A model generated the notes under the pieces. The model ran no database searches and had not been told where the DNA came from. It worked only from the letters and a program-made list of their open reading frames with translations. The position numbers and the translations under genes are program-made. Below, one piece after another: positions 1-41,901 of a DNA stretch of 41,901 nucleotides. Position 1 is the stretch's first letter, and each line of letters opens with the position of its first letter. Origin of the DNA: Spirogloea muscicola (taxonomy: Eukaryota; Streptophyta; Zygnematophyceae; Spirogloeales; Spirogloeaceae); NCBI GenBank assembly GCA_009602725.1, contig WELB01000281.1:96459-138359 (forward strand), in the 5' to 3' direction.

Positions 1-220
1 ATGCTCTGCATCAGAAAGCTGGTCGAGCCTTAGCTGCTGGCACAAGAGCTAGTCAATTGCCGTCCGGTATTCGAGCGTCAGCTAGCGACCTCTATGTGCT
101 GACTCGTGGTTACTGAGCGGGTCAGCTTAGCAGCAGGTGACGTACATTTGTCCAATGTGCTTGCCTTTGTACTTGGCCACACATGGCCTCCCCATCTCTT
201 AATATACACGCATTTTCCCT
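1..220 (+). mobile_element. 3' end of a truncated retroelement copy (LYVLTRGY-stop subfamily)
   Basis: Reading from base 3, the frame encodes LHQKAGRALAAG, then a short linker, then SDLYVLTRGY and a TGA stop at 114-116. This matches the C-terminus shared by all retroelement copies in the window. The following tail (GTGCTTGCCTTTGTACTTGGCC at about 158-180, then an ATATACACGC stretch) recurs near 4618-4680 and 5300-5360. The copy is cut by the window edge, so its 5' limit is unknown. Confidence 0.7.
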
Positions 221-641
221 ACCAAGCGCCTCCTGTCTTCACGGGCAGCGACGGCCTGAACACGAGCGAGGTTCTGTCCCTTCGGCCACCCAACTCTTGG
301 CGGCCGCGGCACCACCGGCCCTCCTCCCCCCCCCCGCCATCCCCCCTGCCATTGCTGCTTCCTCACCGTCCTCTAGCAGCTCCACAAGCGGTACAGGTCG
401 AGTCGTCATGGCCCCCCTCGGCACGGCTCCCCCCGCTCTGTGGCACCTCCGGCCCTCCTAGTATAGGGCGTCATTCGATGGAGCCAAATTCTTTGCGCTG
501 CATTCTTTGCACTTTCTGCATTTTCTGCCTGTACAATGTAGTGGCTTGAATTGGCCTCGCTTCGATTTCATGTGCACCGCGCGCCTTCTCTCTTTTGGCA
601 CCTCCAGTTAGTCTGACTTGCACTTGACTGACTAGAGGTTA
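221..641. other. Spacer with a C-rich tract and a retroelement tail remnant
   Basis: No gene is recognised. The stretch contains C/CT-rich low-complexity sequence (about 317-420). Near 533-600 lies a copy of the GGCTTGAATTGGCCTC ... CCGCGCGCCTTCTCTC tail, which also occurs at about 31752-31800, 27485-27525 and, reversed, 33380-33430. The overlapping ORFs in three frames are proline- and serine-rich and look like by-products of base composition. Confidence 0.5.
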
Positions 642-699
642 TTGAGCAACCACTTGCTGACGTCTTGGAGACTAGTCCTCCTTTTTGCGCCATTGGCCC

Positions 700-1165
700 T
701 TTTCAGAGGTGAGCAGGCTGACCTCAATGCCGCTGGCTCGCTAGCTCAGGTCTATCGTATGCGCCTCTCTATCTCCCTCCAGCGGTCCATAGCCCACGCC
801 TTGCACCTACGTGCTGGCCGTGCTCTGGCTGCTGCCTCCGGCTTTTGTCAGCGGAATTGCCATCCAGCTGCTAATCTTTCGGATCTGCGGCTCCGCACTC
901 GTGGTTACTAAGTGATCCATCCTACTTCAGCTCTGCGACAGCGCTTTTGGCCCATTGGGACCTTGTCAATTCTTCTCGGGCTGGCTGCTCAAAGCCCTTG
1001 CCCCCTTTGAGAGAGCCACTTCTGTCAGACCTTGTCTGTTCCTTTGGGCTGGCTCTCACAACCATTGCTGTCAACTTGTCCTGTTTTCTTTTCGTTTTGG
1101 CCCGTTGAACCTTGTCCATTCTTTCTGGGCTGGCTTTTCACAGCCCCCGCCCCTTCGGAAGAAGA
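700..1165 (+). mobile_element. Truncated retroelement C-terminus with hairpin-type 3' tail
   Basis: The frame ending at 911 reads NAAGSLAQVYRMRLS, LQRSIAHALHLRAGRAL and ends SDLRLRTRGY-stop (TAA), the conserved end of the element protein. About 60 bp further on the tail begins, with imperfect repeats of the TCCATTCTTT...GGGCTGGC...AGCCC hairpin module at about 966-1010, 1035-1070 and 1110-1160. The finger and endonuclease-like parts are missing. Confidence 0.72.
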
Positions 1166-2124
1166 AGCTGAAGAGCTCACTTCTTCGGCCAGGGGCCCCG
1201 GCCCTTGCCTCTGACATGCGCGAGGGCGTCGATTGCTGGCCACTCTCGGCCTGTCCACCTGGGCGGAGAAGTGTGTAGCGCGGTCCCCTGCGGCCTCTCA
1301 GTCCCCTTGGCGCTGCCACCCGAGTGCCTGACTCCTGCAGACGGCCTCACCCTCCTGGGGGTCCCCCTTGGCACGCCAATGTTCGTGAAGGGGCAGCTGC
1401 GAGCCCAGCTCAAGGAGCACCTACAGCCTGCGGCCCGCCTCTTAGAGCTCCAAAATATGCAGCTGGCTTTGGCCATGCTGTCCAAGAGCCTTACGCAGCG
1501 GCTGCAGTACCTGGCGTGGTCCACTCGCCATCCCCGGAGGCGCTGGCAGCATACACGGTGGTCGGCGCAGGTGTGATGGCGAGCCTGGCGGCTCTGGTCC
1601 GTCACCAGGGCTTCCTCCAATAGGCAGCTGCTCTGCACCAGGCATCACTGCCCCTCGGCTATGGCGGCTTCAGCTTCCGCCCGCTCGTCTGGTCATGCAG
1701 GGCAGCGTACCTGAGCAGCTGGGCGCAGGCCGCCGCTTCGATGTCTCAGCGATTCTCGTCCACGGACAGCGTGCGCTGGAGCAGGCGGTGGTGGAGGTGG
1801 GTACGATTAAGCTGCCTTTCCAGGTGTTGCTCCGCTCGCCCCACCAGGAGATGCTGGCGGAGCACCCAGACCTGGCCGGACAGGCGGTCTCCTTTGGGCA
1901 CCTCGCGCTCACCGCCGACCTGCGCCTCCAAGCGCGCTTCACGACCGAGGTGGGTAAGGCGGCTTTGCCACCACCCTGCAGATGCTCTTGGAGCCGACCT
2001 GCGTGGGCGCGCACGACTGCGTTCGGCCTCTTCCTCTGGGGCAGCGGCGCCTGGGGCAGCGGCGTGGCTGATGGCCCTCCCCCTCACCGACGCGCTCACC
2101 ATTCCCGATGAGGCCTTCCGTATA

Positions 2125-2186
2125 AGAAGAAAGTGCTCGCCCATTGAGAATAGGGGCTGGAACAACCAGCCCGAAAAAGAATGAAC
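2125..2186 (-). mobile_element. 62 bp hairpin tail insertion with CGTATA target-site duplication
   Basis: The insert is flanked by CGTATA at 2119-2124 and 2187-2192. It contains the reverse-oriented hairpin module: GTGCTCGCCCATTG, then GGGGCTGG-(AACAA)-CCAGCCC, then an A-rich end. Removing the insert plus one CGTATA copy joins the frame of copy A as AFRIGVHRLL, matching AFRIAVHRLL in the inverted copy B. Confidence 0.85.
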
Positions 2187-2440
2187 CGTATAGGCGTCCA
2201 CCGGCTCCTCAGTCTGCCGCCGCCCTTCCTCCAGGGAGTGGTCCACTGTGAATGTAGCGAGCGGGGGCCCGAGACTTCGGAGCTGGCCGGACACGTCCTA
2301 CAGTGTGCCCACGGTGGTGAGCGGACGGCGGTGCACGACCTCTTCCGCGACGCCACAAATGGCAACCTCGTGGAGGCGGCTTCTCGGTGGCCGCCGAGAA
2401 CTCCGCTGTCATGCCGCTAAAGCAGAGAACGGACGGTCTC

Positions 2441-2648
2441 CACGCCAGACGCGTCGATTGGGCATTCACTGGCTGGCGGGCCGCGTCTTATCCTGGACGT
2501 GGTGACCACCGACTCATTCGACCAAAGTCACCCCACGCAATCCACGCCAGACGCGTCGACCTCCTTGGGCATTCACTGGCTGGCGGGCCGCGTTCTATCC
2601 TGGACGTGGTGACCACCGACTCATTCGACCAAAGTCACCCCACGCAAT
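2441..2648 (+). repeat. Tandem duplication of about 104 bp inside copy A
   Basis: Unit 1 (2441-2542) and unit 2 (2543-2648) both run from CACGCCAGACGCGTCGA through TTCACTGGCTGGCGGGCCGCG to CACCCCACGCAAT. Unit 2 has a few extra bases (CCTCC) after CGTCGA. The duplication covers the R-x-D...DVV part of the endonuclease-like region and breaks the frame in unit 1. Confidence 0.9.
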
Positions 2649-2770
2649 CTGCCTCCAAGGCTGGGTATTCGGTGGCCTACGCCGCCCAGACCAAGGAGAT
2701 GAAGTATGCGGACCACCCGTGGGGGGACGAGTTCTTCCCGCTCGCCATTGACTACGGGGCGTTTAGTCCG

Positions 2771-3425
2771 CGTACTTCAACGCCTTGACCCGAGCGGCGC
2801 AGGCCATCGCATGCCCACGCTTGGAGGCAGATTGGGTGGCGTGGGTACAGTTGAAGGAGTCAATGATCACCACGGCCAGGATGAGGCGCGGCCCGCTAGC
2901 CAGTGGAGGGGCCAGGAGGTCGACCCGTGTGGCGTGGAGACCGTCCGCCTTCTATTGTAGCAGCATGACCGAGGAGTTCTCGGCGGCCACCGAGAAGCCG
3001 GCCTCCACGAGGATGCCATGCATGGCGTCAAGGAGGAGGTCGTGAGCCGCCGTCTGCTCGCCACCGTGTGCACATCAGAGGACGCGCGCAGCCAGCTCCG
3101 CAGCCTCGGCCCCCCCACTCGCCACACTTGCACTTACCCACCTTCTGGAGGCAGGTTGGCGGCAGACCCAGGAGCCGGTGGACTGCTATCCGAAAGGCCT
3201 CATCATGGATGGTGAGCGCGTCGTTGAGAAGGAGGGCCATCAGCCACGCCGCTGCGTCAGGGGAGGAGGCCGACCGCAGTCGAGCGCGCCTCTCAGTCGC
3301 GCTCCGGGAGGCACTGCAGGGCGGTGGCGAAGGCCGCCTTGTCCAACTCGGTCGTGACGCTCGCCTGGACGCGCAGGTCGGTGGTGAGGGCTTCTCTCGA
3401 GGTGCTCAAGAGCCGTGTCTGCCCA
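2771..3425 (-). mobile_element. Inverted retroelement fragment, copy B
   Basis: On the reverse strand, frames read MALLLNDALTIHDEAFRIAVH, then LLGLPPTCLQKVGKCKCGEW (finger start, about 3150-3110), HDLL-DAMHGILVEAGFSVAAENSSVM (about 3055-2950) and GPRLILAVVIIDSF (about 2900-2860), ending at KALKYAD near 2771. It is homologous to copy A and meets it tail to tail, forming a large imperfect inverted repeat. Frameshifts and an in-frame stop show decay. Confidence 0.75.
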
Positions 3426-3810
3426 GCCTGTGGCTCCGCTAACGTACATGTAGTTATGAACACCCTCTGTCTGCACCTGGCTGGCTTTTACACCCGCTCC
3501 TTCAATATCCAACAGCCGCACTTCTCTTCTTGCTGTCCACCGCACCCTGCGTACCCTGCTGCAAGCCACACCCACAGCTGCGCCTGTAGCTGTGTAGCTG
3601 TGTAGCTTTCCTTTTCGGAACCTTTTTTTGGCTCTTTGAATTCTGTCCATTGTTTTTGGGCTGGCTTTGCCACCTCCTCTTCTTTATGGGCGAGCAGCTT
3701 CTTCCTTGTCCACTTTCCAGTGTCCTCAATGGGCGAGGACTTTCTTCTTTCCAGTGGGCCAGCCCTCTTCTCTATGGGCGAGCACTGCTCTCGCTGGCTT
3801 CTCACCTGTC
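3405..3810 (+). repeat. Retroelement tails: MNTLCLHLAGFYTRSFNI type and hairpin type
   Basis: 3412-3525 contains the tail beginning GTCTGCCCAGCCTGTGGCTC, then ATGAACACCCTCTGTCTGCACC, ending near AACAGCCGC. Sister copies lie at 11220-11305, 11425-11530 and 40470-40560, and within LDAH exon 1 on the other strand. 3640-3790 holds several degenerate hairpin-tail units (GGGCTGGC plus ATGGGCGAG). Confidence 0.7.
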
Positions 3811-3821
3811 CATCACTTTCC

Positions 3822-4900: not shown

Positions 4901-4919
4901 ATTTGCAGTGGGTGATGTA

Positions 4920-5265: not shown

Positions 5266-5284
5266 GAATGCCAGAGGCTGCAGC

Positions 5285-5640: not shown

Positions 5641-5689
5641 CATAGCTGTGGAGTTTAGTGCTTCCGGCCCCTTTGAACCAAGTCCATTC

Positions 5690-7236
5690 TATCCAGGCTG
5701 GCCTTTCACAGCGGCGGTGAAGGCGGCGTTCGCGGCTTTTGACTCTGGCATTCTGGCGGGCGCTGCCACTCTCCTCCAACACCCCGGCTTCCTCACCACG
5801 TCAGCCGCGCTGCTCCAGGCTAGCCTGCCTGTCAGTCGCGGCGGTCTAGGCTGCCGCCCAGTCGTCCGCGCCTGCGAGGCCGCCTACCTGGGCAGCTGGG
5901 CACAGGTGGCCGCACCCATCAGCCAGCGTTTCCAAGCTCACGGCATCCGCACCTTGGAGCGTGTGGTGGCTAAGGTGGAGAACGGCTCGCTGCCCTTCCA
6001 GGCTGCTCTCCGCGCTGCCCGCGACGGGCTCCTGGCGGCCCACCCCGACATGTCGAAGCAGGTTGTTCCGTTCATCCACCTCGCGCACACCCCCGACCTG
6101 CGGGCCCAGGCCCGCTACTCTGCGCGATCCATGAGTGATCCATCCTCCCCCTGTTTTACCATTGCATCCTCAGGCCCCTTTGTAGCTGCTCACCGCTCTT
6201 AGGCCCCTCTGAACCTTTGTGAATTCTTTTTGGGCTGGCTTTTCGCAGCCCTTGCCCCCATTGGGAGTGCCACTTCATCTTTGCGCTTGTGGACAAAGCG
6301 GCCTATGACCGGGTGGTGGAGCTCCTTCCGCCGCAAGACATTCGAGGGCGCGCCCGGCTCCTCTTCTCTATGGCGAGCTCTTCTCTCTCAGCCTCCTCCC
6401 AGGGGCGGCGGCGTGGGTATCCGCGCGCGCCATCTACGCGGCTCTCACCATGCCTGACGCAGTCTACAGGATGGCGGCCCACCGGCTTCTGGGCCTCCTC
6501 CCCCCCTGCCTCGTTGGAGTCATGCAATGCGAGTGCGGTGCCCGCCACGCCGACCCTGCGGAGCTGGCGGCCCACATGCTCCGTTGTGCCCACGGCGGCG
6601 AGAGGACCGGATCCCATGACCTTCTCAGGGACGGCATGCAGGGTGTTTTCATCGAGGCGGGCTACAAGGTGGCCGTGGAGCACAAGTCGATAATGCCCAC
6701 CGAGCGCGGCGCCGATGGTCAGCTCCACACCCGGCGCGCCGACCTAGTCGTCATACGCGGACCGCCCAGCGGCGGTCTGCGTATCATCGCGGACGTGGTG
6801 ACCTCCGACTGTGTGGACTCCGCCAAACCCCCCAAGACGGCGGCGACCGCTGGGCATGCGGTCGCTTTGGCGGCCTGGAGCAAGGAGCGGAAGTATGCAG
6901 ATCACCCCCCAGGAGGTGAATTCGCGGCCCTTGCCATCGACGTCCACGGGGCTTATGGGCAGCGGCTTGGCTGGATCTCCTCCAGCGGCTTGCCCGGCAG
7001 GCCATCGAGCGGCGGCCGGGTCCGCCAGGGGGGGGGCTGTGCCCGGCTTCAACGCGGCCGGCTCCCTGGCCCAGGTCTTCCGGATGCGGCTCTTCGTGTG
7101 CCTTCAACGCTCCCTCGCTCATGCCGTCCACTCGCGCGCGGGCCGTGCTATTGTTGCTGCTTCCTGGTCTCGTCTGCCTGCTTCTTTTCCAGCTTCGAGC
7201 TACTCTGACCTGATGTTGCTCACCCGCGGGGATTGA
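5690..7236 (+). mobile_element. Retroelement copy C (post-RT region, finger, endonuclease-like domain, C-terminus)
   Basis: This is the most complete forward copy. 5725-6130 encodes LLQASLPVSRGGLGCRPVV and AAYLGSWAQVAAPISQRFQ, a helical region that follows the RT core in related copies. A hairpin-tail segment (about 6205-6255) breaks it. 6450-7060 then encodes MAAHRLLGLLPPCLVGVMQC, the finger C-x1-C-x12-H-x3-C, SHDLLRDGMQGVFIEAGYK, the R-x-D-L-V-V motif, and GLRIIADVVTSD. A frameshift in a G-run (7028-7036) separates the last part, FNAAGSLAQVFRMRLFV to SDLMLLTRGD and TGA (7234-7236). No RT catalytic core is present. Confidence 0.78.
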
Positions 7237-7740
7237 GCTTCCTGTGGCTCCATCATGTCTGCTTGTCTAGATGCCTAGCTGTGTATTTCCCTTCTTTCCG
7301 GCACCTGTTGTGGCTCTTTGGTTGTTGTGCATTCTTTTTGGGCTGGCTTCTGCCAGCCCCTGTCTTCTATGGGCGAGCTCATTCTTCTTTCACAGCCTTC
7401 GCCCCCTTCAGAAGAGCTTCTTGCTTGGAACAATACTTCATACGCTTGGCCAGCGTATGAGGATGCTAGGATGCTTTTCGGAGGGCTTGCAGGCAGCCCT
7501 ACCTCGTTCTTGTGCCGCTGAGTGTCAGTAGCCTACAGCGAGTCCAAGCCATGCTCTGCACCAGCTGGGCGAGTGTTAGTCGGTGGCAGCGGGGCTTGGA
7601 GACTGCCGTCCGTATTCGGGCATCGGTTGGCGACCTCTACGTTCTGACCAGCAATGTGGGGGCAAGTCAGTATAGCAGCAGGCCGGCCACAGTCGTGCAT
7701 GAGCTTGTCGTAGTACTTGCCGCTCTGTCATAGGACTTGC
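7237..7740 (+). mobile_element. Hairpin tail plus another truncated C-terminal end
   Basis: 7325-7390 is a hairpin-tail unit (CATTCTTTTTGGGCTGGC ... GGGCGAGCTCATTCTTC). 7490-7660 encodes the end of an element (VSSLQRVQAMLCTSWAS, then ASVGDLYVLTSN), belonging to the same subfamily as 1-116. All of it is fragmentary. Confidence 0.6.
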
Positions 7741-8480: not shown

Positions 8481-8519
8481 CATAGTAGCCACTTGTTTTG
8501 CTGAGTGATTCAAGCTTTT

Positions 8520-10384: not shown

Positions 10385-10399
10385 GAGCACGGCGGGGGC

Positions 10400-10828: not shown

Positions 10829-11340
10829 CAGCGGCGCCGGGAACAGGGTGCAGCCCTTCAGCTGCTTAGCAGGGGTTACTGAGTGTCTCGTAGCTGCTTT
10901 GTTTCTGTTTCTTAGCGCTTCCCCTGGCCCCCTTCTCGTACTCTGTTCATTCATTTTCGGGCTGGTTGTTCCAGCCCCTATTCTCAATGGGCGAGCATTT
11001 TCTTCAGCTTCCCGGTGGCTCGGCCCCTTTGGGTCTTGTTTCCTGCTACCGAATGCGTTTGTCTATGTGCCTACAGCGGTCCCAAGCGATTGCTTTGCAT
11101 CGCCGGGCTGGTCGCGCGCTCTGCAGCAGCCTCTGATTTGCGCAGCGGGGTTGCTCTTCCTCCCCTTAGCTCATCTGACTTGCTACTGCTGACACGGGGG
11201 TATTGAGGACGCCCTGTCTGCCTAGCCTTTGGCTCCGCCATGAACACCTGTATGCATCTGGCTGGCAGTTTACAGCCGATTCTTTAATATCAGCAGCCGC
11301 TTTGGCTTTTCTTTTCTTTTCTTTTTTCTCCTCAGCCCGT
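10829..11340 (+). mobile_element. Two further truncated retroelement ends and tails
   Basis: 10855-10880 carries a QLLSRGY-stop end. 10935-10993 is a hairpin tail unit (TTCATTCATTTTCGGGCTGG ... CAATGGGCGAGCATTTTCTTC). 11040-11206 encodes CYRMRLSMCLQRSQAIALHR-type sequence, then SSDLLLLTRGY-stop (TGA about 11204). The CGCCCTGTCTGCCTAGCC ... ATGAACACCTGTATGCATCT tail follows, ending near 11304 at AGCAGCCGCTTT. 11123-11304 is nearly the same sequence as the insert at 40383-40561. Confidence 0.75.
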
Positions 11341-12124: not shown

Positions 12125-15100
12125 TCATCGTTGCAGCAGCAGCACCAGCTCGCAGTGTGGCGTATGGGGGAAGAGGTCTACAGCTATTGCACGCTCCGGC
12201 CGGAAGGCGTCCACCTCCGCGGACATGCCTCCAAGCCGCCGCTTGGCCGTGCCCAGTGTGTATCCCCGCTGACCAGGCGGCCTCCGACCGGTCTGCTGGC
12301 CCATCTGCTCATGATATGGCGTGCACAGCTCCAACGCGTTCATGGCCAGCGACTCGGGGTTGCATGACACGTACCTGGAGGGAGCAACTGCCTGCTCAAG
12401 TCAGGAATTGCCGGAATGGCCTGACAGGGTGCTGCAGTATGATGGTAGCAGCCAGCCTTGGCTACAGACGTTCTACTCAGGCGGAAGCACATGAGACAGT
12501 GAGTGGCTTGTGCACTCACACAAGGCGCTTCAGCTGGGGGTGGGATCTCAGACTCTTCAGGACCTGGAGCACACACTTGATCTGGATGAGACAAGCTGCA
12601 GCAGGGCTTCTCACAGCCAATGCTGCCTTCATCAGCATTTCCCTATCTAGAAGCCTTGCGCTCCAGCAAGGAGCTGCGAAATTGATTACAAAGGTCGTCA
12701 AGTGACCCACGATTACTCGGACTGCATCAAGGAACGCATAGTAGAGCAGGGCTGATCAGAGTGGTGTGGCATCACTCACAGTAGGATGAAGACCAACTCG
12801 GGGCGGGTCAACAATGGCAACAACCTCTGAGAAGCGGTGTTGTGGGCTATCACTGCAGGAGTTGTAAGGAGCTTCTTCCTTGTCCTCGACTGCAGCACCC
12901 TCTGCCCGACCTTCATCTGGCTGTGCCCGGTCCTCCTGGTCCACAGCTGCTTGAGTCTTCAACTTTTTGTTGCTGGGATCAGCTGTCACATCACAGGCCT
13001 CACCTTTGCCTGGAGCAGTTTCCAGCTGTTCACTGTACTCCATGAGCAGCTCTTGCATCACATCCTCAGCCTGCAGTAGACACAAATTGCACACGGCTTG
13101 ATCTGAAAGGGCTTGGAACGCGGCCGCAAGTCCTGCCTGTGAGCTGATCCGCACATGACTCAAAGACTGCTGGCACCTCCGTACCTTGGCTGCGACAAAA
13201 CGGCAATTTGTGATACCATTGATGCTGGCATTCGTTCTGGCATCCATTACTGCCGCCTCGTTCATCTCAATACCAACCACCTGCAAATGCTTGGCTTCTC
13301 CGTTAGTGATGCTGTGGATCGGCAATAATTGGATAGCAAGCAAAAGGGCCGGATAAGACAGGCTGCAGGAGGCCATACCATGCCTACTTGTGCAGCAAGC
13401 GTGAGCCCAATCGTCCCTGTTCCGCAGCAGACATCAAATAGCAGGGTGTTTGGTCCAAGCTCTGCCCACTCGCCTACTAATCGGTAAAGCTTTTCTGCAG
13501 CACGCGTATTGACCTGCAACACTCCACATGTGACACGACAGGGGCATAAGATGGCACCAGCCTCAGTCTTTTGCAAATTGGTCAAGGACAAGCAGGCTGC
13601 ATCCTCCTTTCAGCGCCTCATGATGACCAACCTGGAAGAACGCCGTTGGGGAGATGCGAAAGGACAGCCCGCACAGTTGCTCCTGTATGTACAAGGGCCC
13701 CTCGATCTCCAGTACCTCCCCATTCTCTCTGCCACCGGCTGATGACTGCTTGCTAAGCTTCAAAGAGACGAGTGACGAGCTGGGAGGTGCAGCATTTGAG
13801 ACGCCTGCGTGCAGCTGCACGCAGTGGAACTGTGAGCCTGCATGTGCATCTTGCTGAGATGCTGGTAGATGCTTAAGCGGATGGGAAGCAGAGCTGCCAA
13901 TTTGAGGCCAACAGAGTTGGTAGTGACTCTCACATACCTGGCAGATGATGGTTGTGAGTGGTAAGGGTGGACATGCAGTGGCTGCCCCCTTCACAAAGGC
14001 CGCTGCCATGGAGCGCAGCTCAGCGTCTACCACCTCTTGAGGGAACTGCTCTGCTCCAATCTGCTCGATGATAACAAGGAAATGTCATCAAGCCGTCCTG
14101 ACATACTTCAAAAACTACTCGCCATGAAGGGTAGGGTTGTTTACCTTACCTGCACCAGCAACATGACATCTATTGCTTCTTCAATGGAAGGACAGCCTCC
14201 TTCTCGCACCTGTCAAGCACACTCCGTTGCATGTCAGGCAGAGAGGAATTTCAATGCACACCACACAGACGACAATGATGGCAAGCCAAAGGGAGATGGG
14301 TTGTTGAGAGTAAGAGAAGTGGTACAGTAAGCTGGCGCCAGAAGCCCTTGTTCTCCTTCTTGTCCCACACAGGCAACGCAGAGGCCTCCACAATGCTCCG
14401 CATACTGGCCGCGTACGCTTTGGCCACGCGCGAGACGTTGCGGCAGCTGCTAGGCTCCTCCACTGCTGTCACCCCCTCCCTGGAGGTCCATGCCAAGCGA
14501 TCCCGTCAATGTTGAAGACACACTGCAGGTCATGCACAGGTATCTGCTCAGGTTGCAGCAAGATACATACAGCGCCACAGTGAGATGCAAACTATGCCAC
14601 TCGCCAGCACGCACAAGTTCTCAGTGAAGTAGCAAAAAGGTACTCACAACCACTTGTTGGCAGTCTGAGCTTCTCCTCACCTGAACATGCCGAGCTGGAA
14701 GCCAACCTCAATGGCACCAGCAACAGTCCTCCCCACCGTGAACTCGCACTTGTTTCTGTACTCGTCCACTTGCGGTGATTCGAGGATGTCCAGCACCTCA
14801 CATGGCAGGCCCTCTGTGCTGACATGATTGGACCGCTCTAGCCCTGTCAGCGTTTCGTTTTTGGCGGAGCCACCAGCGAGGCCATAGACAGAACTTGAAC
14901 CACATCCATTGCCGCCGGAACAATTATGCTCAACCCATGCATGCTGGAGCCAAGGGCAGCGACAACCTCGCTCGCGAGCAGCGCACACCCAGTCGGGCAG
15001 CTTCGTCCCCCGTGGACAGCACTTGCGTGTCTTCCTCACCTGGTCGACACACAGCTCTCGCAGACGTCAACCGAGTGGCGTCCAGATCACGACAGGAGGG

Positions 15101-16101: not shown

Positions 16102-16235
16102 GGGCCCGGCTTGAGCTCCAGGAGGGGCCAGGGTTTAAGGGAGGGGGTGGGGCCAGGGTTTAAGGGGCGGCTAGAGCACGACGGAGAAGCCCCTGTCTCC
16201 TCGCTCCTTGCCCCGCTGCACCGCGCGTCGCCGCC
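16102..16235. promoter_or_regulatory. Divergent TRMT2A/NOL10 promoter with paired telo-box-like repeats
   Basis: Only 134 bp separate the two start codons. Two near-identical units, GGGGCCAGGGTTTAAGGG, lie at 16124-16141 and 16149-16166, 25 bp apart. Each contains AAACCCT on the reverse strand, the core of the plant telo box (AAACCCTA), and a TGGGCC/GGGGCC-like site II element lies at 16100-16106. In land plants these two motifs mark ribosome-biogenesis and translation genes. Use here as a shared regulator is inferred. Confidence 0.6.
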
Positions 16236-19200
16236 ATGGCGGCGGCGGCAGGCGGAGCGTCGGGCTTCGGCTCGTTGCGCATGACGGCGCTCAACGGCGT
16301 GCGTGTGTACAGTGTGTCCGGCGGCGCCAGCGCGCCGCCGTGGCTGTCGGCCAAGCGCCGGCGCGCGCTGCGCAAGGACGACGCCTACCTGCGGCGGCTG
16401 GAGCTGGTGCAGGACATGGACTTCGACACCGCCAGCACGCGCATCAAGGCCACGCCCGACGGCGCCTTCCTCGTCGCCTCCGGTGCGCACCCATGTCCAC
16501 GTCTTTGCTTCTGCGCAGCCCTTGAGGCTGTCCAGCGCTGCCGCCGTCTCACGGGGGCGGTGCTCGCAGGCGTGTACCCCCCGCAGGTGCGCGTGTACGA
16601 GCTCTCCCAGCTGTCCCTCGAATTCGAGCGCCACCTCGACGCCGAGATCATCGACTTCCAGGCACGCTTTCCCTCACGCCTTCACTGCCCGCCCACCTGC
16701 CAGCATCGTCGGCTGCCCGCCGACCAGGCAGGAGGTCTCACAACGTCAATCCTGCTCGTGGGCCCTGCACAGATTCTGTCGGAGGACTACTCCAAGCTCG
16801 CGTTCCTGTGCGCGGACCGTAGCCTCTGCTTCCACGCCAAATTCGGCGCCTACTACCAGACTCGGATCCCCAGGCAGGCCCCTGTGCTTGCTGCTGCACC
16901 CGGGCACCTCCTTTCTGCCCCTCCGCAATGCCCACCATTGTCGAGTCTGTTGACCTCAGTCGTGGTGAGGAGTGTGTGCGGCTTGCTGGCTTACTTGTGG
17001 CCGGCTGCGGGGTCGCAGAATGGGGAGAGACCTGGCATATGATTCAGCGTCATGTGACCTGCTCGTGGCTGCTTCTTCGCCCCAAGTTTATCGCCTCAAT
17101 CTGGAGCAGGTCCTCAGCTACCTTGCATGGCTTCTCATTCTCCTCCTCTGTTGTTGCAGCAATTATGCAGAGCCTGTGACAACTCTTGCATCTCTTCTTG
17201 AGCTAAGGGCCTTTTTTGGAGCTCACATGCTGAAAGCTCAGAATCTCGCATGTGGTCGCTGTGCCCAATTCTCTGATGAAGTAGTTTTGGAGCTGAGCAA
17301 AAGCTTGTCATCAGGGCCAGCATGTGAGCAAGTGCAATAATGTGTCAAGTACGTGTCATATTGCTGACCGTTAAGCTGGGGGGCTTGCTGCTACTGTGCA
17401 CTGCTGGCCTTCAGGGGTCTTTCTTGACGCCTCTCACAACTCAGTCGCCATCGGTGAACGTTCTCGGCATAAGGTCGGTGATGCTCTTTGCAGGTTTGAC
17501 TAAGAGCTCTACAAAGTGCGGCCAGACTCACCTACTCTGACTGAACCTGCTGCTTGCTGCTGCTTCTGACGGAGGGGGCGAGTCACGTGCAGTCCGACAA
17601 ACGGTTTGGTGGTGTGCGGAGGCGAGGATGGTGCTGTGGAGTTCTTTGATCCCCGCCAGAAGCAGCACGTTGCGCGCATCAGTGCAACGGGCCCTGGTGC
17701 TGCGCCACAGGTTAGGAGTGTTGCCCTTATCCAAGTGACCTCCGGGCTACATAAGCCTTCTTTACAGCTCGGTGTTCACATGCTACAGATGTCCAGCAGT
17801 CAGCACTCGTTTGTATATGAGCTTGCACGTTTCTAAAGTCAAAGCACTGCTCTTTGACTTGCACGCAGGAGGTGACTGCACTGCGTTTTGAGGAAATTGA
17901 GTCCATGCAGCTGGCTGTGGTGACTGACGCAGGCATGGTACGAGCACATGGTAGCCTTGTCCCATTTCATTGCCGCAGCCAGCTTGCCAAGCACCTCACC
18001 CATGCAAGCCTGCCTTGGCATACAGGTGATGGTGTATGACCTGCGATCTTCGGTTCCCCTGCAATCCAAAGACCACATGTGAGCTCTAATTTGCAGGCTG
18101 CAGTCTCCTGCTGGCTGCACACCACCGGCATCCTTAGCTTGCTGAAAATTACACCGCATCATTCAGGGATTCAAGTGATGGATGCCAGGTATGGGAGGCC
18201 CATTGTGGACATCAAGTGGCATAAAGGCGTCAACTCGCTTTCACGTCACATCATCTCTGCCGATTTGAAGATCCTCAAGATCTGGAACCCTGAGTCTGTG
18301 GGTGGCTCTGCCCCTGCCACCACGTCGAGCAAGCAATCTGGATGATGGAACCGGCGGGGCATGTCAATCGTGCGTTGTAGTGATTGTTGGCAAGTTCCTT
18401 GTATCTGCGTGTCTTGCAGCCAGTAACCTTGACAAGCATAGAGCCAAGTGAGGGCGACATCAACGATGTGTGCACCGTGAAGGACAGCGGCTTGCTCCTA
18501 CTTGCCTTGGATGCACCTCTCATGCAGAACTTCTTCATTCCAGAGCTGGGCCCTGCTCCTCAGTGGTGCTCGTTCTTAGACAACCTCACTGTGAGACTCT
18601 CTCCTCCTACAATCAGATGCATGGCCTGGTGTTCTGTGCTGTCGGTCCGGTTCTGGAGCACCTGAGGCGTCGCTCATGCTTTGACACTTTTCTTCAGGAA
18701 GAGATGGAGGAAGAGAGGGAGACAGTCGTCTAAGACAACTTTAAATTCGTCACGCAAGATGAACTTGAGAGGTTGCAGCTCAGTCACCTTGTGGGAACAC
18801 CGCTGCTGCGAGCTTACATGCATGGGTACTTCCTTGATGCACGCCTTTTCCACAAGGTTGGCTTCCTTCTCATAGGCCTCTGCCAGTTCAGATGTACAGC
18901 TCTGGTGGCAGCAGGTTGTCTGCAGTAGGAGGAGGAGCCAATGCTACTATGCCGTAGGAGCATGGCTGCTTTTACAGCATGCTTATTCATCTCCATTGTT
19001 GCTCTGCCCAGGCAGAAGCAATAGTGGACCCCTTTGCATACGAGACATATCGCAAGAAACGCATTGAAGAACGTGTTGCTGCCACGCGTGCTGCTCGAAT
19101 AACGGTCGGTTGCTTAAGTCTCTCCTGGAGTGTGTTGATTCAGTCATATTTTATAAAGTAGGCCTGCTTGCTGTTGACCTCACTGGCAAGCTGCTGACGC

Positions 19201-30958: not shown

Positions 30959-31016
30959 GAAGAAAGTGCTCGCCCATTGAGAATAGGGGCTGGAACAACC
31001 AGCCCGAAAAATGACT
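30959..31016 (-). mobile_element. 58 bp hairpin tail insertion with AGGACTA target-site duplication
   Basis: AGGACTA occurs at 30952-30958 and 31017-31023, immediately bracketing the module GAAGAAAGTGCTCGCCCATT ... GGGGCTGG-AACAA-CCAGCCC ... ATGACT. The insert is nearly identical to the one at 2125-2186. It sits about 140 bp upstream of the methyltransferase start, in its promoter or 5' UTR. Confidence 0.85.
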
Positions 31017-31544: not shown

Positions 31545-31808
31545 TTCTCTCTCTCTTGGCTCTTCATCAACGTGCAGGGCGCGCTCTAAGTCAGGCCTCC
31601 GGCTTTCGTGGCGGCGCTCCAGCTCCCCAAGTTAGCTTGTCAGATTTGTTTGTGCTCACCCGTGGGTACTAATGTCATCTTAGGTACCTTAGATTAGGTC
31701 TCCGTATTATGTAGCATTGTTTAGTCTGCACTCGACTCTGCCTGAACAATGTATTGGCTTGAATTGGCCTCCCTTTCAATTCATGCGCCCCGCGCGCCTT
31801 CTCTCTCT
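31545..31808 (+). mobile_element. Truncated retroelement copy E (identical inverted partner at 33374-33626)
   Basis: The frame reads HQRAGRALSQASGFRGGA and ends SLSDLFVLTRGY-stop (TAA about 31670). The tail with GTACCTTAGATTAGGTCTCC ... CCGCGCGCCTTCTCTCTCT follows. 31556-31808 is the exact reverse complement of 33374-33626 (253 bp, no difference found by eye). Upstream, 31300-31545 is an in-frame but unrelated Arg/Ser-rich extension. Confidence 0.85.
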
Positions 31809-31974
31809 CTTCTCCCAATGGTCCGAGTACTTACTTCCGTTCCTTCTCGCCCGCCGCTTGGCCGACTGCGTAGCCCGCCTCCTCCGACGAGCGTTTGGCG
31901 CTGCTGGAAACAAAGCAGTCAGCCGTGACAACGTCGGCGATGAGCCGAGGCCCCCCGCCGAGCGCGCTGCATCT

Positions 31975-32410
31975 CCCTCGGCACCGTCTCGTGCTTTGTA
32001 GTGTAGTCCTTTTCTGGCACTTTCTCCTTTGGCTTTGGACATTGTCCATTCCTTTTGGGTTGGCTTTGCCAGCCCCTCTTCTCTGTGGGCGAGCTCTTCT
32101 CTCGCTGGCGACGAGGTCGGCGCGCCGGGTGTGGATGCGGCGGAAATTCCCCATGAGCGAGCACTTTCTTCTTTTCCAGCCCCTATTCTCAATGGGTGAG
32201 CACTTTCTTCTCGTACTTTGTTCATCCTTTTTTGGGCTGGCTTTCTCAGCCCCTATCCTTAGCACTCCGGCTCCTTCAGACCTTGTGCATTCCTTTGGGC
32301 TTTTTTGTACATTCTTTTTTGGCTGGCTTCTGCCAGCCCCTCTCTTCTATGGGCGAGCTCATTCTCTTTGGGCTGGCCTCTCCCGGCCACCAGCGCTTTC
32401 TTCTATGCTG
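31975..32410 (+). repeat. Cluster of four hairpin tail units
   Basis: 31975-32100 repeats the stop-to-hairpin tail of 10675-10818 (GCATCTCCCTC...; TTGTAGTGTAGTCCTTTTC; CCAGCCCCTCTTCTCTGTGG). Further units lie at about 32157-32222, 32222-32265 and 32310-32360, all sharing GGGCTGGC/CCAGCCC and GGGCGAGC or GGGTGAGC. Their head-to-tail crowding suggests repeated insertion into earlier tails. Confidence 0.75.
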
Positions 32411-33285: not shown

Positions 33286-33354
33286 GACTCTGTTCAGTTT
33301 TTTTTGGGCTGGCTTTTCCAGCCCCTATTCTCAATGGGCGAGCACTTTCTCATA
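33286..33354 (+). mobile_element. 69 bp hairpin tail insertion with AAACAGGGC direct repeats
   Basis: AAACAGGGC at 33277-33285 and 33355-33363 flanks GACTCTGTTCAG-T8-GGGCTGGCTTTTCCAGCCCC ... CAATGGGCGAGCACTTTCTC. The surrounding sequence is itself a retroelement tail, so this is an insertion into an older insertion. Confidence 0.78.
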
Positions 33355-33373
33355 AAACAGGGCTACATTGAAA

Positions 33374-34663
33374 AGAGAGAGAAGGCGCGCGGGGCGCATG
33401 AATTGAAAGGGAGGCCAATTCAAGCCAATACATTGTTCAGGCAGAGTCGAGTGCAGACTAAACAATGCTACATAATACGGAGACCTAATCTAAGGTACCT
33501 AAGATGACATTAGTACCCACGGGTGAGCACAAACAAATCTGACAAGCTAACTTGGGGAGCTGGAGCGCCGCCACGAAAGCCGGAGGCCTGACTTAGAGCG
33601 CGCCCTGCACGTTGATGAAGAGCCAATGCTTGCGAGCGCTGCAAACTAAGCGAGAGCCGCATTCTATAATATGCAACTAAGGCCTGCGGAATGCTGGAGT
33701 GGCCCAAGCTGCCCCCCCGACTTCGACGACGCGCATCAACCAGCCGGGCCAGATGCTGGATCAGGGAGGACCATTTCACGCCGTAGCCTCCATAGATATC
33801 CATGGCACACGGGTAAAGATGGTCCCCTCGAGGATGATCATGGTAGTGCCGCTCCTTCTTGCGCTCCGCGCTGGACGTGGCCCAGCCAGACACGGTTGAC
33901 GTTGGTGCGCCAGCCTTGTATGCGTCGATCAGTACCACGTCCAAGAGCAGACGAGGCCCACCGCCCCGCGGGGTAGCGACCACGTCCAGACGCCGCACGT
34001 ATGGCTTGCCGCGCCTTGAGGAGATTGGCATGATCCCAGACACCTCCATCGCCGGATGATATCCCGCCTCTCGCACAATGCCAAACATGGTATCCCTTAG
34101 TAGGTCGTGGGAGGCAATGCGCTCACCCCCCTCAACACACCTCAGCATGTGCGAAGCTAAGGCGAGCTTGTCGTCGGCAATGTGGCCACACTCGCACTGG
34201 CGGATGCCAGCCAAGCAAGGGGGGGGGAGGCCAAGGTGGTGGTGGAGTGCCGTGCGGAAAAGGTTGTCAGAAAGCCGAAGGGACTCGTAGATTGGCAGAG
34301 CGTTTAGCCACTCCGACGCGCCCGGGGAGCCGATTGAAAGGAGCCGGGTAAGGCCACGTCTATCGTCCTTCAATTCATGCGCCCCGCGCGCCTTCTCTCC
34401 TTGAGCAGTCCCTTCAAGTCGGAGGCGGCCTGCACGTCCGCAGCGTGTGTGTAGTGAGCCTGCGCTTTCCTATCGGAACAGCGTGCCCATGCCGCAAAAT
34501 CTGCATGACCCTCGGCAAGTGTTGGTAGGGAGCACGAGAGGTCATGCAGTGCTGCGGTTAGGGAAAGCTGGAAGGGCCTGGGCCCTGTTGCAACACCCGC
34601 TATAGCGGGTGCTAAAACAGCCTGGCCCCTCAGGATGAAGCGACTGGAGATGGTGGAGGCCAC
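33374..34663 (-). mobile_element. Retroelement copy D: longest intact C-terminal ORF (finger plus endonuclease-like domain)
   Basis: The open frame 34373-33510 (287 codons) covers: HHLGLPPPCLAGIRQCECGH and SHMLRC (C-x1-C-x12-H-x3-C finger, about residues 57-76); ASHDLLRDTMFGIVREAGYH; R-x-D in VRRLDVVATP; GPRLLLDVVLIDAYKA; HYHDHPRGDHLYPCAMDIYG; YRMRLSLSLQRSQALALHQR; SDLFVLTRGY-stop. Upstream, 34663-34403 continues the same protein (FQLSLTAALHDLSCSLPTLA; WARCSDRKAQAHYTHAADV) but is interrupted by a 27 bp tail insertion. The order finger, then R-x-D...DVV, resembles the CCHC plus restriction-like endonuclease of R2-type LINEs. No RT core is present. The 253 bp 3' part is identical to copy E, so this lineage moved recently. 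Confidence 0.8.
34371..34397 (+). mobile_element. 27 bp tail-only insertion with TCCTT target-site duplication
   Basis: TCCTT at 34366-34370 and 34398-34402 flanks CAATTCATGCGCCCCGCGCG followed by CCTTCTC, which is the terminal part of the copy D/E 3' tail. It is antisense to the host ORF. Removing it with one TCCTT joins the reading frame as LLKDDRRGLTRL. Confidence 0.85.
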
Positions 34664-34983
34664 TTGGGCCCAGCAACCCAGGTGAGCTGCTTGGGACAGG
34701 CGAGCCAGTGGACGGCAAGAGGAACGAAGAAAGACTCTTCCAGAAGAGCGATGGCTGTGATTGGCCAGCCCAGAAGCCCAGAAGAAGGACGAAGCAAGGG
34801 GCGTGGCGACGCCGGGCAGCTGCAGCTGCGCTGCTCATCCAGCCGCGCGCTCGGGCGCCGACGGGGCGGCGCTCGCGCCCTGCCGCAGCTCCTCCGCCTC
34901 CTCGCTTTGGCCCGGGCGGCCCACCGCCCCGCCGCTCCGCCGGCCAGCCGCAGCTTCCACCACAGCTCCCCGCCGCCCGGGCC
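34664..34983 (+). promoter_or_regulatory. Upstream region of the LIFEGUARD gene with a hairpin-like repeat
   Basis: 34733-34785 carries a second-subtype hairpin unit (CTCTTCCAGAAGAGCGATGG, then CTGTGATTGGCCAGCCCAG). 34800-34983 is very GC-rich and probably core promoter and 5' UTR. The frame of exon 1 is open upstream to 34708, but that part is Pro/Arg/Ser-rich and not conserved, so I do not count it as coding. Confidence 0.45.
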
Positions 34984-37799: not shown

Positions 37800-37836
37800 T
37801 CCCCCCCAAACTCCCCCCCTNCCCCCCCCCCCCCCG
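37800..37836. other. Poly-C tract with an ambiguous base
   Basis: CCCCCCAAACTCCCCCCCT, then N at 37821, then an uninterrupted run of 15 C. The only undetermined base in the window lies here. The true length of the homopolymer is probably not resolved. Confidence 0.9.
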
Positions 37837-39093
37837 ACGAGTCCTGGCACAGGCTGAGGAGTTGGGCAAACATCCGATCAAGTATCCAATCAAGTCTGAG
37901 GAGTACTGCTGTAAGACCCCAATACGATTGGGAGGCAGCCACCACTTAATGTGATATTTCTGAAGGGCCAATGTCTTCCACAGCTTCAAACTTGGCAACA
38001 GAGACCAGGTGGTACCGTTTTGGTGGATGAAGTTTTGGCCGACTACGTCTTTGCAGCGCCGGGAATGCTTATGAGCTGGGAAGCCATCCTGGCGGCCTGT
38101 ATAAGCTTCCACCGCTTTGTACAAGAGATTCTTGTAAGTATGTCAAAGACATACCAAAATAGGCAATAAATTGACAAAGGCGCAGTGTTGATGAGGCATT
38201 ACGTCTGTAACTTATGCTGCGGATCGCCAAGCCTGGGCTGCGGGCGGAGCAAAGGGAAAGCGGGGAAGAATTGGGATGGGGCTCCATTGTCAAAGTAGCA
38301 ACGGGTACTGCAGCAAGGTCCAGGAGTCCGATGGTGCGTGAGATTTCACCGCCCTTCCCATCCGCATTCCAGCTACGTAGCCTGAATGACTGCGGGTCTG
38401 CATCACGACCATACGGGCCCGGCTGGCACGGACGGTTTCTCGTTGACGGCCAGTGTATGACAAGTCGACGGCTATCAATCGTCTACCACGGACATCAATC
38501 AATCCGTCGGCCACCACCGCCAATCCCGACGGTTCCCGTCAATGCCCCGTCATGTGCACCTAATGGGCATCCTGAGCAGTATCGTCTACGTCAATCAACT
38601 ACCGCTAGCAAGCCATTACTCCACAGAGCCGCCTTCCGACTCTGTTGTTCCAGCGCCAGCACGCTGTCTCGCGCGTCACGACTTTGGGCTGCGCCGCTTG
38701 CAGCTCTAGGTGAGGTTGTTCGATAAAAGCAAGGCAAGGAAAGATAGATGGCGTACATTTCCGGAACAAGTTGTGCATCAGATCAACGAGTCCAAAAGTC
38801 TCTGAAGTCCCTGTTGAAAATTGGTCCTATCATGGCAAGACAAACATGTGAGCAAATAGAGGTTTTATCTTGAATGCAGTAAATGGAGGATATGCTGTAG
38901 CTGTTTAGCCCTGCCACACTCAGGCGGACAATTTGCAGGTTGCTTCTCGTGCGACAAATAAGAGTAGGTATAGACGAATTGCACGTACATCTTCTGATAT
39001 TTTTTGCTCAATGCCATGACTACAAGACACCAACTTTCCAGTCGTCAACGTGGTGAAATGTCCCGTCTCCAGGCATCTGTCAAGCCTTCCCTG

Positions 39094-39162
39094 CACAATC
39101 ACAATCACAATCACAATCACAATCACAATCACAATCACAATCACAATCACAATCACAATCAC
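39094..39162. repeat. (CACAAT)n hexanucleotide microsatellite, about 11 units
   Basis: CACAAT repeats without interruption from 39094 to about 39162, ending CACTCC. It translates as His-Asn repeats forward and Val-Ile repeats in reverse, giving spurious ORFs on both strands. Confidence 0.97.
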
Positions 39163-39770
39163 TCCATTGTCAGCCTGAGGGGTGGTCTAAGTCTCCAGGC
39201 AGCTGTCGAGTCATTACTGCGCATTGACATTCCAGCCACGTGAACATTGTCGTATCTCTGCCACTGATGCAGCTGCCAGATCTCTTGTGGTGATGCTGAC
39301 GCAGTTGGAAAAGAGGCCCTCCAGATATCCCTTCCATGAGAGGTCCAATCCTTGCGCGCTGCTTGCTCTCCTTCTTTGTTTGGATCCCTGGTTAATTCCC
39401 AACTCACCCTTGTTTTGTCGTGGACACACTTTCTTTGCTGTCAAGTGCTTTCATCTTCACTACAATTTACGCTTTTCTTTGGAGATGACTGATCTGGGAG
39501 AATTATGCGATTACTAGAGATCGTGATATGAAGTTGGTGCACCTTACTCAACTCACTGCATACAGCCTGTACCTGAGAATTTCTCCATGCTCAAATTGCT
39601 AATCAGTGTGACCACCAGGATTAGACATGTATTGGCCAAGTTGACTTACAGCCACTGCTACATCTGGTGTGGCTCTTAATTTAGTGTACATCAGGCTTTC
39701 AGTAACTTGCTTTAAGGGAACTTTCACCATTCATTCTGCTCCTCTGTTCAGGGACAATCTGTCTTAGTAG

Positions 39771-40110
39771 AATGAACGCCCGTATAAAGAGGAGTAGATG
39801 CTATCGCCAGGCGCGCAAGGGGTCCTGCAACTGGGATGCGATGAGAGGACGCTTCCAGGAGAGGAACTTGCTCGCCCATAGAAAAAGAGGGGCTAGCAAA
39901 GCCAGCCCAGAAAGAAATGGACAACATCCAAAGGAGAGGGTGGCGGCTGGGAGAGGCCAGCCCCAGAATGAGAAAGAAGTGAACAAAGTTCGAAGGGGCC
40001 AGAGAAAGCGCTGAAGCACACAGGAAACCAAGGAGCTACGAAATACTCTGTGACCCCTGTTGAGCAGCCGCTGGTCGGAGGAACTGAGCGAAGCTGGCCC
40101 CTCGCCTGCG
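39771..40110 (-). mobile_element. Reverse hairpin tail and degenerate retroelement end
   Basis: 39868-39920 is a reverse hairpin unit (TTGCTCGCCCATAGAAAAAG, AGGGGCTAGCAAAGCCAGCCC). 39930-40015 is a second-subtype unit (GAGAGGCCAGCCCCAGAATG; GGGGCCAGAGAAAGCGCTGA). On the reverse strand 40085-40048 reads SSDQRLLNRGHR, a decayed LTRGY end. Confidence 0.6.
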
Positions 40111-40319
40111 GGAGGCGGACGTCGGCAGCGTCTGGGCGGCCGTCGAGCGGGGTGGGCCGGCGCCGTGTTCCCCGTGCACCGAATCCAGGATGTGGGTGTG
40201 GTGGATGAGCATGCCCATGGCGCAGGGCGGCAAAGCTTATGCGTTCACGTATTGCCAGCAATGCATGTACCTCGCCCTGAGATACAAACGGACGTGGAGG
40301 AGGGCGCCCGCCCCGGCGG

Positions 40320-41035
40320 CCTTGTGGCGGTGGGAAGGTGGCGGCGCTGCGGGAGGCTGCCAAAAAGGAGCTCAAGAAGCAGCAGCCTCTGGCTTGCGCA
40401 GCGGGGTTGCTCTTCCTCCCCTCAGCTCATCTGACTTGCTACTGCTGACACGGGGGTATTGAGGGCGCCCTGTCTGCCTAGCCTTTGGCTCCGTCATGAA
40501 CACCTGTATGCATCTGGCTGGCATTTCACAGCCGATTCTTTCATATCAGCAGCCGCTTTCTAGAAGCAGAACCCAAGTACAGGTTTAGGCAGGCAGGCAG
40601 TATCGGAAGCATCCGGCGCTCGTGCCTCTCATTACCCGCATGGTCGCCGCATGCGACTCCCGCATGGAGCGCAGGGTGTGCGACGCCATCCTCGTGCTGC
40701 TGGGGTTCGGCGCGGGGATGCCGCCGGGCTGCGTCGCCCACCTACACCTCAGCTGCTTCAGCTTCCACGTCACGTGGCCCGGGCCGTGGGGCGGCGCGGG
40801 CGGCGAGGATGAAGAGCCGCCGAGGGTGGAGATGACAGTGCGAATCCACGACACGAAATGCGACGCCCACAATCAGGCCTCCGTCGTCCCGGTGCGTTTT
40901 GCCGAGGTCCAGCCTTGGGGCCACTGCGCCATTTACTGGGTGCCGGCGCTGTTCACCAAGTTGAACGTCTAGCGGGGCGGCGACTTTTCGAGGTCCGTCC
41001 ACAAGTGTAGCCTGGCGATTGATATGCAGCGTTGG
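40320..41035 (+). repeat. Forward arm of an inverted duplication with an unrecognised coding-like module
   Basis: After the 179 bp insertion, an open frame (40622-40972) reads ITRMVAACDSRMERRVCDAI, then GFGAGMPPGCVAHLHLSCFS, VEMTVRIHDTKCDAHNQASV and CAIYWVPALFTKLNV-stop. Beyond that stop the similarity to the other arm continues (RGGDFSRSVHKCSLAIDMQR). I do not recognise the protein. The stop after LNV is a Trp codon in the partner, so this arm is probably a decayed copy. Confidence 0.7.
40383..40561 (+). mobile_element. 179 bp truncated retroelement insertion with AGAAGCAG target-site duplication
   Basis: AGAAGCAG at 40375-40382 and 40562-40569 flanks a segment encoding SSSDLLLLTRGY-stop and then the GCCCTGTCTGCCTAGCC ... 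ATGAACACCTGTATGCATCT tail, ending at AGCAGCCGCTTTCT. The segment is nearly identical to 11123-11304. The inverted arm at 41640-41700 lacks it and supplies an empty-site sequence. Confidence 0.85.
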
Positions 41036-41224
41036 GGCGACTGGTACATCATCCTGCGCTTCCACCGCGGCGAACCTCTCCGCACGGAGCTGGTGAGCGG
41101 GCGATTGCGGCACACGCGAGCGGCCGGAGCAGGCCCGTCGCGCACGCGCACACGCCCGTCATCGGCTCTGCGGAAGGGCTGGCCGCGTTGGGAGCGCGAG
41201 AGGTTGGACCAGTTGCTGTAATGC

Positions 41225-41740
41225 TCCACGTCCACGGCTGGGCTGCCCTCGTGTATAGAGCGCCAAAAGATTCTGCCTCGCCAGACATCCCATTGCGTGA
41301 AGAGGGCCAGCACCCAGTACTTTGCGGGAGGCCCCAAGGGACCACCTCTGCAATGGGCACCGGGACGACGGCCGCCTGATTGTGTGCTTCGCGCTTGAGG
41401 TCGTGGATTCGCACAATAATCTCCACGCTCGGTGGCCATTCATCCTTGCCGCCCGCAATGCCCCACGGCCAGGGCCACGTAGTGTCGAAGCTGAAGCAGC
41501 TGAGGCGTAGGTGGGCGTCGCAGCCTGGCCGCATGCCCGCGCCGAACCCAGAAGTAGCAGGACCGCATTGCAGACCCTCCATGTGGAGGTCACAAGCGGC
41601 GACCATGCGGACGATGAGGGGGCACGAGGGCCGGCTGCTTCCGAATGGCCTGTCGCATCTGTGGAGCAGGTTCTGCCTCCTGTAACCCCCCTTGGCAGCC
41701 TCCCGCAACGCCGCCACACCTCCCACCACCACGACATCGC
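41225..41740 (-). repeat. Reverse arm of the same inverted duplication
   Basis: On the reverse strand from 41737: WEVWRRCGRLPRG, IVRMVAACDLHMEGLQCG, SGFGAGMRPGCDAHLRLSCF, VEIIVRIHDLKREAHNQAAV, and in another frame KYWVLALFTQWDVWRGRIF and WRSIHEGSPAVDVEHY. It matches the forward arm residue for residue with moderate divergence and frameshifts. About 190 bp (41036-41224) separates the arms. 41741-41901 is G/C-rich with no recognised feature. Confidence 0.7.
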
Positions 41741-41901
41741 TGGGGCGTTCGCAGCGTTGCGGGTGGCCTCCTAGTACTGGGGGCAGCGGGCGGATGGGTC
41801 ACTCGTGCCGTGCGCTCGCTCCCTCAGCCGGCGACTCCGCGGCGGCGGGCTTGCGCATGCGGGCGGCAGTGGCGGACGTCCAGGGGGGGGTGGAGGGGGG
41901 G

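Follow-up and report, generated by a model that had tools for sequence, protein, structure and literature searches.

We analyzed a 41,901-nucleotide stretch of the Spirogloea muscicola genome (Zygnematophyceae; assembly GCA_009602725.1, contig WELB01000281.1, positions 96,459 to 138,359 of the forward strand), here called the window, for short insertions that consist of the 3′ end, or tail, of a long interspersed nuclear element (LINE). A preliminary description, made from the sequence alone, had listed five such insertions, each with a direct repeat of its own length. All five were present, with slightly corrected coordinates; four were measured by a script, and the shortest was read by eye. 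On the minus strand, a 61-bp tail of the hairpin family, which we call family A, lies at 2125 to 2185 between copies of the 7-bp duplication TATACGG (minus strand; 2118 to 2124 and 2186 to 2192; script and reading), the earlier 62 bp with 6 bp being an alternative cut of the same insertion, and a 58-bp family A tail lies at 30959 to 31016 with the 7-bp duplication TAGTCCT (script). On the plus strand, the script measured a 69-bp hairpin-family tail at 33286 to 33354 (9-bp duplication AAACAGGGC) and a 179-bp tail of another LINE family at 40383 to 40561 (8-bp duplication AGAAGCAG). By reading, the latter holds an open reading frame (ORF) end, LLTRGY*, and a 3′ untranslated region (UTR), and it is 96% identical to positions 11123 to 11303. 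The script also yielded a sixth case, new to the list: a 138-bp family A tail at 10864 to 11001 on the plus strand, with the 8-bp duplication CTTCAGCT. The fifth listed insertion, a 27-bp tail of a family that we call T (ending in CGCGCGCCTTCTC), lies on the plus strand at 34371 to 34397, where matched blocks of an older minus-strand LINE relic adjoin it on either side; the script found chance repeats only, and its 5-bp duplication, TCCTT, is a weak reading by eye.

The script was applied to 21 candidate units with a search width of 51 by 25 positions, and the remaining units had either no repeat or one that was short, of low complexity, or misplaced. Because so wide a search yields 7-nucleotide (nt) repeats by chance (about 0.08 per candidate, by our estimate), no single case in the window is strong evidence. 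The question of chance was settled by a genome sample with a paired-flank control, described below.

The window holds several relics of the elements to which such tails belong. On the minus strand, 33513 to 34714 is a relic of the C-terminal half of an R2-like LINE, with a Cys/His motif, an endonuclease-like region, and the ORF end, as judged by sequence and structure comparison. A relic of the same type, at 1236 to 2540 on the plus strand, hosts the 61-bp family A insertion and is the most N-terminal protein match in the window (residues 761 to 1171 of the parent protein described below). At 5741 to 7387, also on the plus strand, a related LINE (residues 871 to 1298) is followed by a hairpin tail (protein match and hidden Markov model [HMM]). 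The 1299-amino-acid (aa) parent protein matches the window from residue 761 on only; since its reverse transcriptase (RT) domain spans residues 576 to 804, the RT core is absent from the window save for its last part, in agreement with the preliminary description. The claim of at least 18 hairpin units on both strands was likewise borne out: an HMM built from tail copies outside the window gave 19 matches at an E value of ≤1e-3 among 37 listed. Five of the hairpin-tail matches, from several families, form a cluster on the plus strand at 32037 to 32367, which may be a pile of tails that landed in tails.

Two repeats involve LINE sequence. A 107-bp tandem duplication (2439 to 2649) lies within a LINE endonuclease-like region. 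A perfect 257-nt inverted repeat (31556 to 31812 and 33370 to 33626, arms 1557 nt apart) carries, by reading, a family T LINE end in each arm; the pair may be either a recent duplication or two young copies inserted in opposite orientations.

A full-length parent for the hairpin tails

The family A parent was found outside the window, in the same assembly (153 Mb, 471 contigs). It is a 4.1-kb non-long terminal repeat (non-LTR) retrotransposon with a single ORF of 1299 aa, an R2-like RT, and a 3′ UTR that ends in the hairpin tail. The C-terminal 41 residues of the ORF served as the query, for which 150 of 14178 candidate matches were scored, all 150 being listed at 100% identity. Open frames of 1271 to 1431 aa were present at 8 of these 150 (the frame on contig C33 crosses a run of N), and at 4 of the 8 the distance from the listed ORF start to the C terminus was exactly 3899 bp. 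Five other scored matches had frames of 5453 to 8617 aa, which probably run through N. Three of four fetched parent regions align at 99.85 to 99.90% over 3.9 to 4.1 kb, and the fourth has an N gap. One of the three gap-free regions is without the ORF start; in two of them, the 3′ UTR continues straight into a whole hairpin tail, which is interrupted in the third.

The 1299-aa product (P0002) has an RVT_1 domain at residues 576 to 804 (Pfam; E = 7.9e-16), and in the PDB, three R2 proteins are its best matches by sequence, with E values of 6.8e-7 to 1e-6. A C-terminal CCHC motif is a defining feature of LINEs with a restriction-like endonuclease, the R2 group. Such a motif is invariant in three window copies of the C-terminal region (C47, C49, H62, and C66), as is D132, and the same motif can be read in P0002. 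No apurinic-type endonuclease was among the five Pfam domain hits of P0002 up to an E value of 1. On these sequence features, the parent fits an autonomous-looking LINE of the restriction-like endonuclease (R2) group. It is not R2 in the strict sense, as the sampled places on contigs C1 to C10 have differing flanks and are not one 28S ribosomal DNA (rDNA) site.

A Pfam search for RTs, tried as another route to the parent, brought up other retroelements, such as locus L001, and not the family A parent. Eight RT loci (L001 to L008) were nearly tied in score, with open frames of 1172 to 1237 aa; we inspected one of them, L001, and read it as a Ty3/gypsy-like LTR retrotransposon. These loci suggest recent LTR retrotransposon activity as well.

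Copy number, length, and 3′ end of the tails

A 35-nt tail pattern, allowing up to two mismatches, matched the genome 3849 times (1940 forward and 1909 reverse; control, 0), and the family A ORF start, also as 35 nt with up to two mismatches, matched 23 times (22 exact). The ratio of 3849 to 23 overstates the skew, as the tail pattern covers family A and a second family, B, and the ORF start covers family A only. The 26-nt tail of family T had 1744 exact matches genome-wide. For closer study, we took the first 100 places listed, which therefore come from the largest contigs. The 100 exact-tail places are 100 distinct copies, 75 nearest to family A and 25 to family B; the 5′ end could be measured in 85, lay beyond the retrieved sequence in 11, and was bounded by N in 4.

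The median length of the 85 measurable copies was 102 nt, and 41 of the 100 listed copies were at most 100 nt and 71 at most 200 nt long. Some family B copies that had appeared at 194 to 195 nt in a first measurement were an artifact of a short reference, and all 100 were remeasured with longer references. Two copies with family T inserts inside family A tails (L081 and L091), whose 55 nt is not a truncation length, were left in the length and duplication counts. While the 35-nt pattern imposes a floor of 35 nt, 20 further places found by an exact match to the last 17 nt only include copies of 25, 28, 28, and 32 nt, as well as one 18-nt copy without a duplication. Tail lengths are thus continuous from about 25 nt to full length. 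The separate tail-only insertion system proposed in the preliminary description finds no support, given this continuity; moreover, because the 5′ ends are spread, length alone requires no parasite acting in trans.

Variation at the 3′ end was checked with an upstream 21-mer, since the first tail pattern had demanded an exact end. The exact tail was present at 64 of the 100 listed places of this 21-mer. Of the other 36, we examined 20, all of which reach GGGCGAGC and differ in the last 9 nt only, so that the 3′ end of the tail is anchored and slightly ragged. The hairpin fold of the single sequence is stable (z = −3.59), and Rfam gave no match at the gathering score.

Downstream of the tail, T was found in the 100 listed copies at +1 (78), +2 (56), +4 (46), and +5 (42), versus 17 to 28 at +8 to +12; this count is free of search-window bias, except that the element itself may supply the T at +1. 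In 30 copies with a duplication of at least 7 nt, the duplication starts with C (20), T (21), T (22), Y (24), and T (16), or CTTYT, a count that the search window biases toward the tail's own letters. This target motif resembles the element's own tail end, CTTTCTTC, which suggests that the RNA end may pair over a short length with the nicked strand at the target.

Tails land in tails because CT-rich 3′ UTRs hold the same CTTYT motif, and nesting of this kind was seen at L074, L081, L091, L016, L086, and L032; at L037, two tails lie within one 9-nt duplication. Fusion by template jumping was considered as a general account of 12 junctions (L016, L035, L046, L074, L081, L083, L086, L091, L103, L109, L122, and L133). 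It was dropped because L074, L081, and L091 look, on reading, like one tail nested in another, and because duplications of 7 to 8 nt flank L016 and L086.

Flanking duplications and empty sites

The duplication test, based on the junctions of the first measurement, used 84 of the 100 listed copies (12 open and 4 bounded by N were dropped) and recorded the longest exact repeat near both junctions; in the control, flanks were paired between different copies. Repeats of at least 6 nt were found in 34 of 84 copies (7.2 expected), of at least 8 nt in 25 (1.2 expected), and of at least 9 nt in 19 (0.5 expected), and the duplications varied from 6 to 18 nt. Among the copies without a duplication of at least 6 nt, nine had a repeat of at least 9 nt farther upstream, versus 1.8 expected; this group contains indels, short fillers, a double tail, and, in one copy, a 5′ inversion. 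Some of the missing duplications, though not all, are thus due to misplaced junctions, fillers, or nested inserts. Of the 20 further places found by the last 17 nt, 4 had a repeat of at least 6 nt, counted without a control. In 20 family T copies, repeats of at least 8 nt were found in 3 (0.36 expected) and of at least 7 nt in 4 (1.0 expected). The genome-wide tabulation that the preliminary description had proposed, carried out here on a sample, gave duplications that, where present, vary in length and a 3′ end that is ragged only in its last 9 nt.

The copy with the 5′ inversion (L108) combines an inverted 5′ part with a 17-nt duplication. In our reading, it resembles the products of L1 twin priming and may be an analogous case on an R2-like LINE.

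For 85 cases, we removed the unit and one repeat copy in silico and searched the joined flanks in the window and the genome. The joined flanks of L123 (25-bp tail, 5-nt repeat) match an empty target site in the window, at 6139 to 6228 on the plus strand, in 90 of 90 letters; those of L045 (82 bp, 11-nt repeat) match positions 6164 to 6233 in 70 of 70; and L106 (15-nt repeat) has an empty-site match of 96.6%. In total, the joined flanks of 15 of the 85 cases matched the window or another locus; since some of these matches are weak (82 to 87%) or lie within tail sequence, not all 15 prove an empty site.

Copies of one repeat share a CTTTGTAG site, next to which three tails of 72, 82, and 25 nt (L028, L045, and L123) lie; the repeat is represented in the window at 6164 to 6233. 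The left flank of L028 does not match this shared repeat site. The CTTTGTAG site is possibly a local hot spot.

Other features of the window

Two host genes were recognized, one with a NOL10-like N-terminal domain (16164 to 17042) and one with a methyltransferase domain (12756 to 13433, minus strand). A perfect array of the hexamer CACAAT (11.5 copies) spans 39094 to 39162, and an inverted repeat of 220 nt with 83% identity has its arms at 40703 to 40922 and 41330 to 41549, with 407 nt between them.

Discussion

The short units are, with high probability, 5′-truncated copies of several related R2-like non-LTR retrotransposons, inserted by target-primed reverse transcription. The products are striking, yet this is essentially ordinary truncated copying and not a new system. 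The preliminary description had preferred target-primed reverse transcription to cut-and-paste transposition, and we concur because of the anchored 3′ ends, the variable 5′ ends and duplications, the empty sites, and a full-length R2-like parent with the same tail. It had further proposed mobilization in trans by a full-length element elsewhere. For the hairpin family, an element that encodes an RT and carries the tail at the end of its 3′ UTR does exist, but the step in trans is unsupported, and it is needless because the same products arise when the element's own RNA is copied with ordinary 5′ truncation.

A version of the trans proposal in which the LINE protein copies short noncoding tail RNAs, as with a short interspersed nuclear element (SINE) or a minimal parasite, is the most credible of the alternatives, and it is still unlikely. 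It would explain why most listed copies are within 200 nt and why the 23 family A ORF starts face so many A and B tails, and 10 of the 85 lengths do fall at 74 to 79 nt, although some of these are nested tails. Against it, the copies begin within LINE sequence at lengths scattered from 35 to 476 nt, several recurrent fusion-like junctions read as tails nested in tails, and no recurrent foreign head was noticed when the junctions were read, which was done without a formal test for heads or peaks. As to SINE features, the sampled copies read as LINE 3′ UTR plus coding sequence up to the truncation, and no tRNA gene was present in the window; promoters were not searched for. That the units are scattered old LINE fragments left by decay, recombination, or assembly error is very improbable. 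The many eroded LINE pieces in the window would agree with such an origin, as would the sampled copies that lack a duplication, but not the empty sites that match letter for letter around a 25-bp and an 82-bp unit, nor the excess of duplications over the control. We give the least credence of all to a DNA transposon or miniature inverted-repeat transposable element (MITE) moved by cut-and-paste. The units are indeed short, high in copy number, flanked by direct repeats, and able to form a hairpin; however, neither the duplication length (6 to 18 nt) nor the 5′ end is fixed as in such elements, and the tails are continuous with an RT-encoding parent; no search aimed at terminal inverted repeats was made.

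Several results weigh against the explanation by truncated copying or against the assignment of the parent. Fifty of the 84 copies had no duplication of at least 6 nt at the measured junction, and beyond the misplaced cases, the candidates are age, deletions, further misplaced junctions, or insertion without a duplication; L075 has a good empty site without any duplication. The signal is also uneven, being carried by family A (30 of 60 copies with at least 6 nt) and found in only 4 of 24 family B copies, for which age, poorer junctions, or something else are candidate causes. Family T showed no clear excess at 5 nt or more (7 of 20 versus 6.0 expected). None of the four predicted hairpin pairs had a compensatory change, in an alignment of poor register. 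In P0002, two N-terminal Cys/His motifs can be seen by eye, one of which scores below the Pfam cutoff (E = 0.086 to 0.36). The model of a window copy's C-terminal domain is of low confidence (mean predicted local distance difference test [pLDDT] score, 51.6). With this model, Foldseek placed R2 chains 1st to 4th at E values of 0.013 to 0.086, none below 0.001, and in a structural aligner six R2 chains led (Z = 6.7 to 8.3), with Prp8 (6.6) and then Holliday junction resolvases (6.5) close behind. The modeled C-terminal region is compatible with an R2-type endonuclease of the PD-(D/E)XK fold, without proving it.

Under target-primed reverse transcription, family A RNA would end in the hairpin followed by CACTTTCTTC, and the parent protein would bind this 3′ hairpin and nick a CTTYT-like target site. 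The RNA would then pair through its pyrimidine end with the nicked strand, and reverse transcription would start within the last few nucleotides and mostly stop within 200 nt. A nick of the second strand at varying distance would give duplications of variable length. Judging from the resemblance of tail and target sequences, a short stretch of homology between the two probably assists priming. A more specific proposal is that an R2-type LINE was freed from single-site targeting, its pyrimidine RNA end, CTTTCTTCT, pairing with CTTYT sites, that very low processivity yields insertions of 25 to 200 bp, and that the CT-rich 3′ UTRs of related families carry the motif and so make tails the landing sites for tails. 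We offer this combination tentatively, at slightly less than an even chance.

Family A resembles the restriction-like endonuclease LINEs (R2, R4, NeSL, HERO, and Utopia) in its single ORF with an RT, a C-terminal Cys/His motif, and an endonuclease-like region, and in its 5′-truncated copies. In the literature, CRE, R2, R4, and NeSL are described as mostly target specific and HERO as holding many nonspecific elements (PMC4640811), and R2-like elements without site specificity have been reported (PMC7650587). Unlike R2, family A inserts are dispersed at CTTYT-like sites with variable duplications instead of occupying one rDNA site. Another element for comparison is Zepp, which occurs also in Chlorella. 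In Coccomyxa, Zepp inserts into its own copies, and its arrays consist mostly of 3′ ends owing to frequent 5′ truncation (PMC8226300); nested insertion and 5′-truncated copies are shared with the elements studied here. In contrast, Zepp is grouped with L1 and clusters at putative centromeres (PMC8226300), whereas our tails occur throughout the sampled contigs, and their parent has an R2-like RT.

A stem-loop at the 3′ end is common in stringent-type LINEs and SINEs (PMC3747384) and is a likeness to such LINE/SINE pairs, although no SINE head was noticed here on reading. The same source gives truncated LINE copies as 100 to 1,000 bp, whereas two-fifths of our listed copies are at or below the lower bound. 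In L1, a match between the primer end and the RNA tail guides initiation, and four matching nucleotides suffice (PMC3649969). The present case differs from L1 priming at T tracts in that a pyrimidine tail on an R2-like element, not poly(A), would do the pairing, as far as can be judged from sequence. What stands out is the degree: insertions of tens of nucleotides, in thousands of copies, at targets that resemble the tail.

In our judgment, repeat annotation easily overlooks insertions of 25 to 100 bp, so that counts of such mutations may be too low. With its near-identical parents and its thousands of tails, among them many whose junctions are clear and some whose empty sites are letter-perfect, the S. 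muscicola genome is a natural data set for studying which targets R2-type enzymes choose, how they use short homology in priming, and how they come to leave the template.

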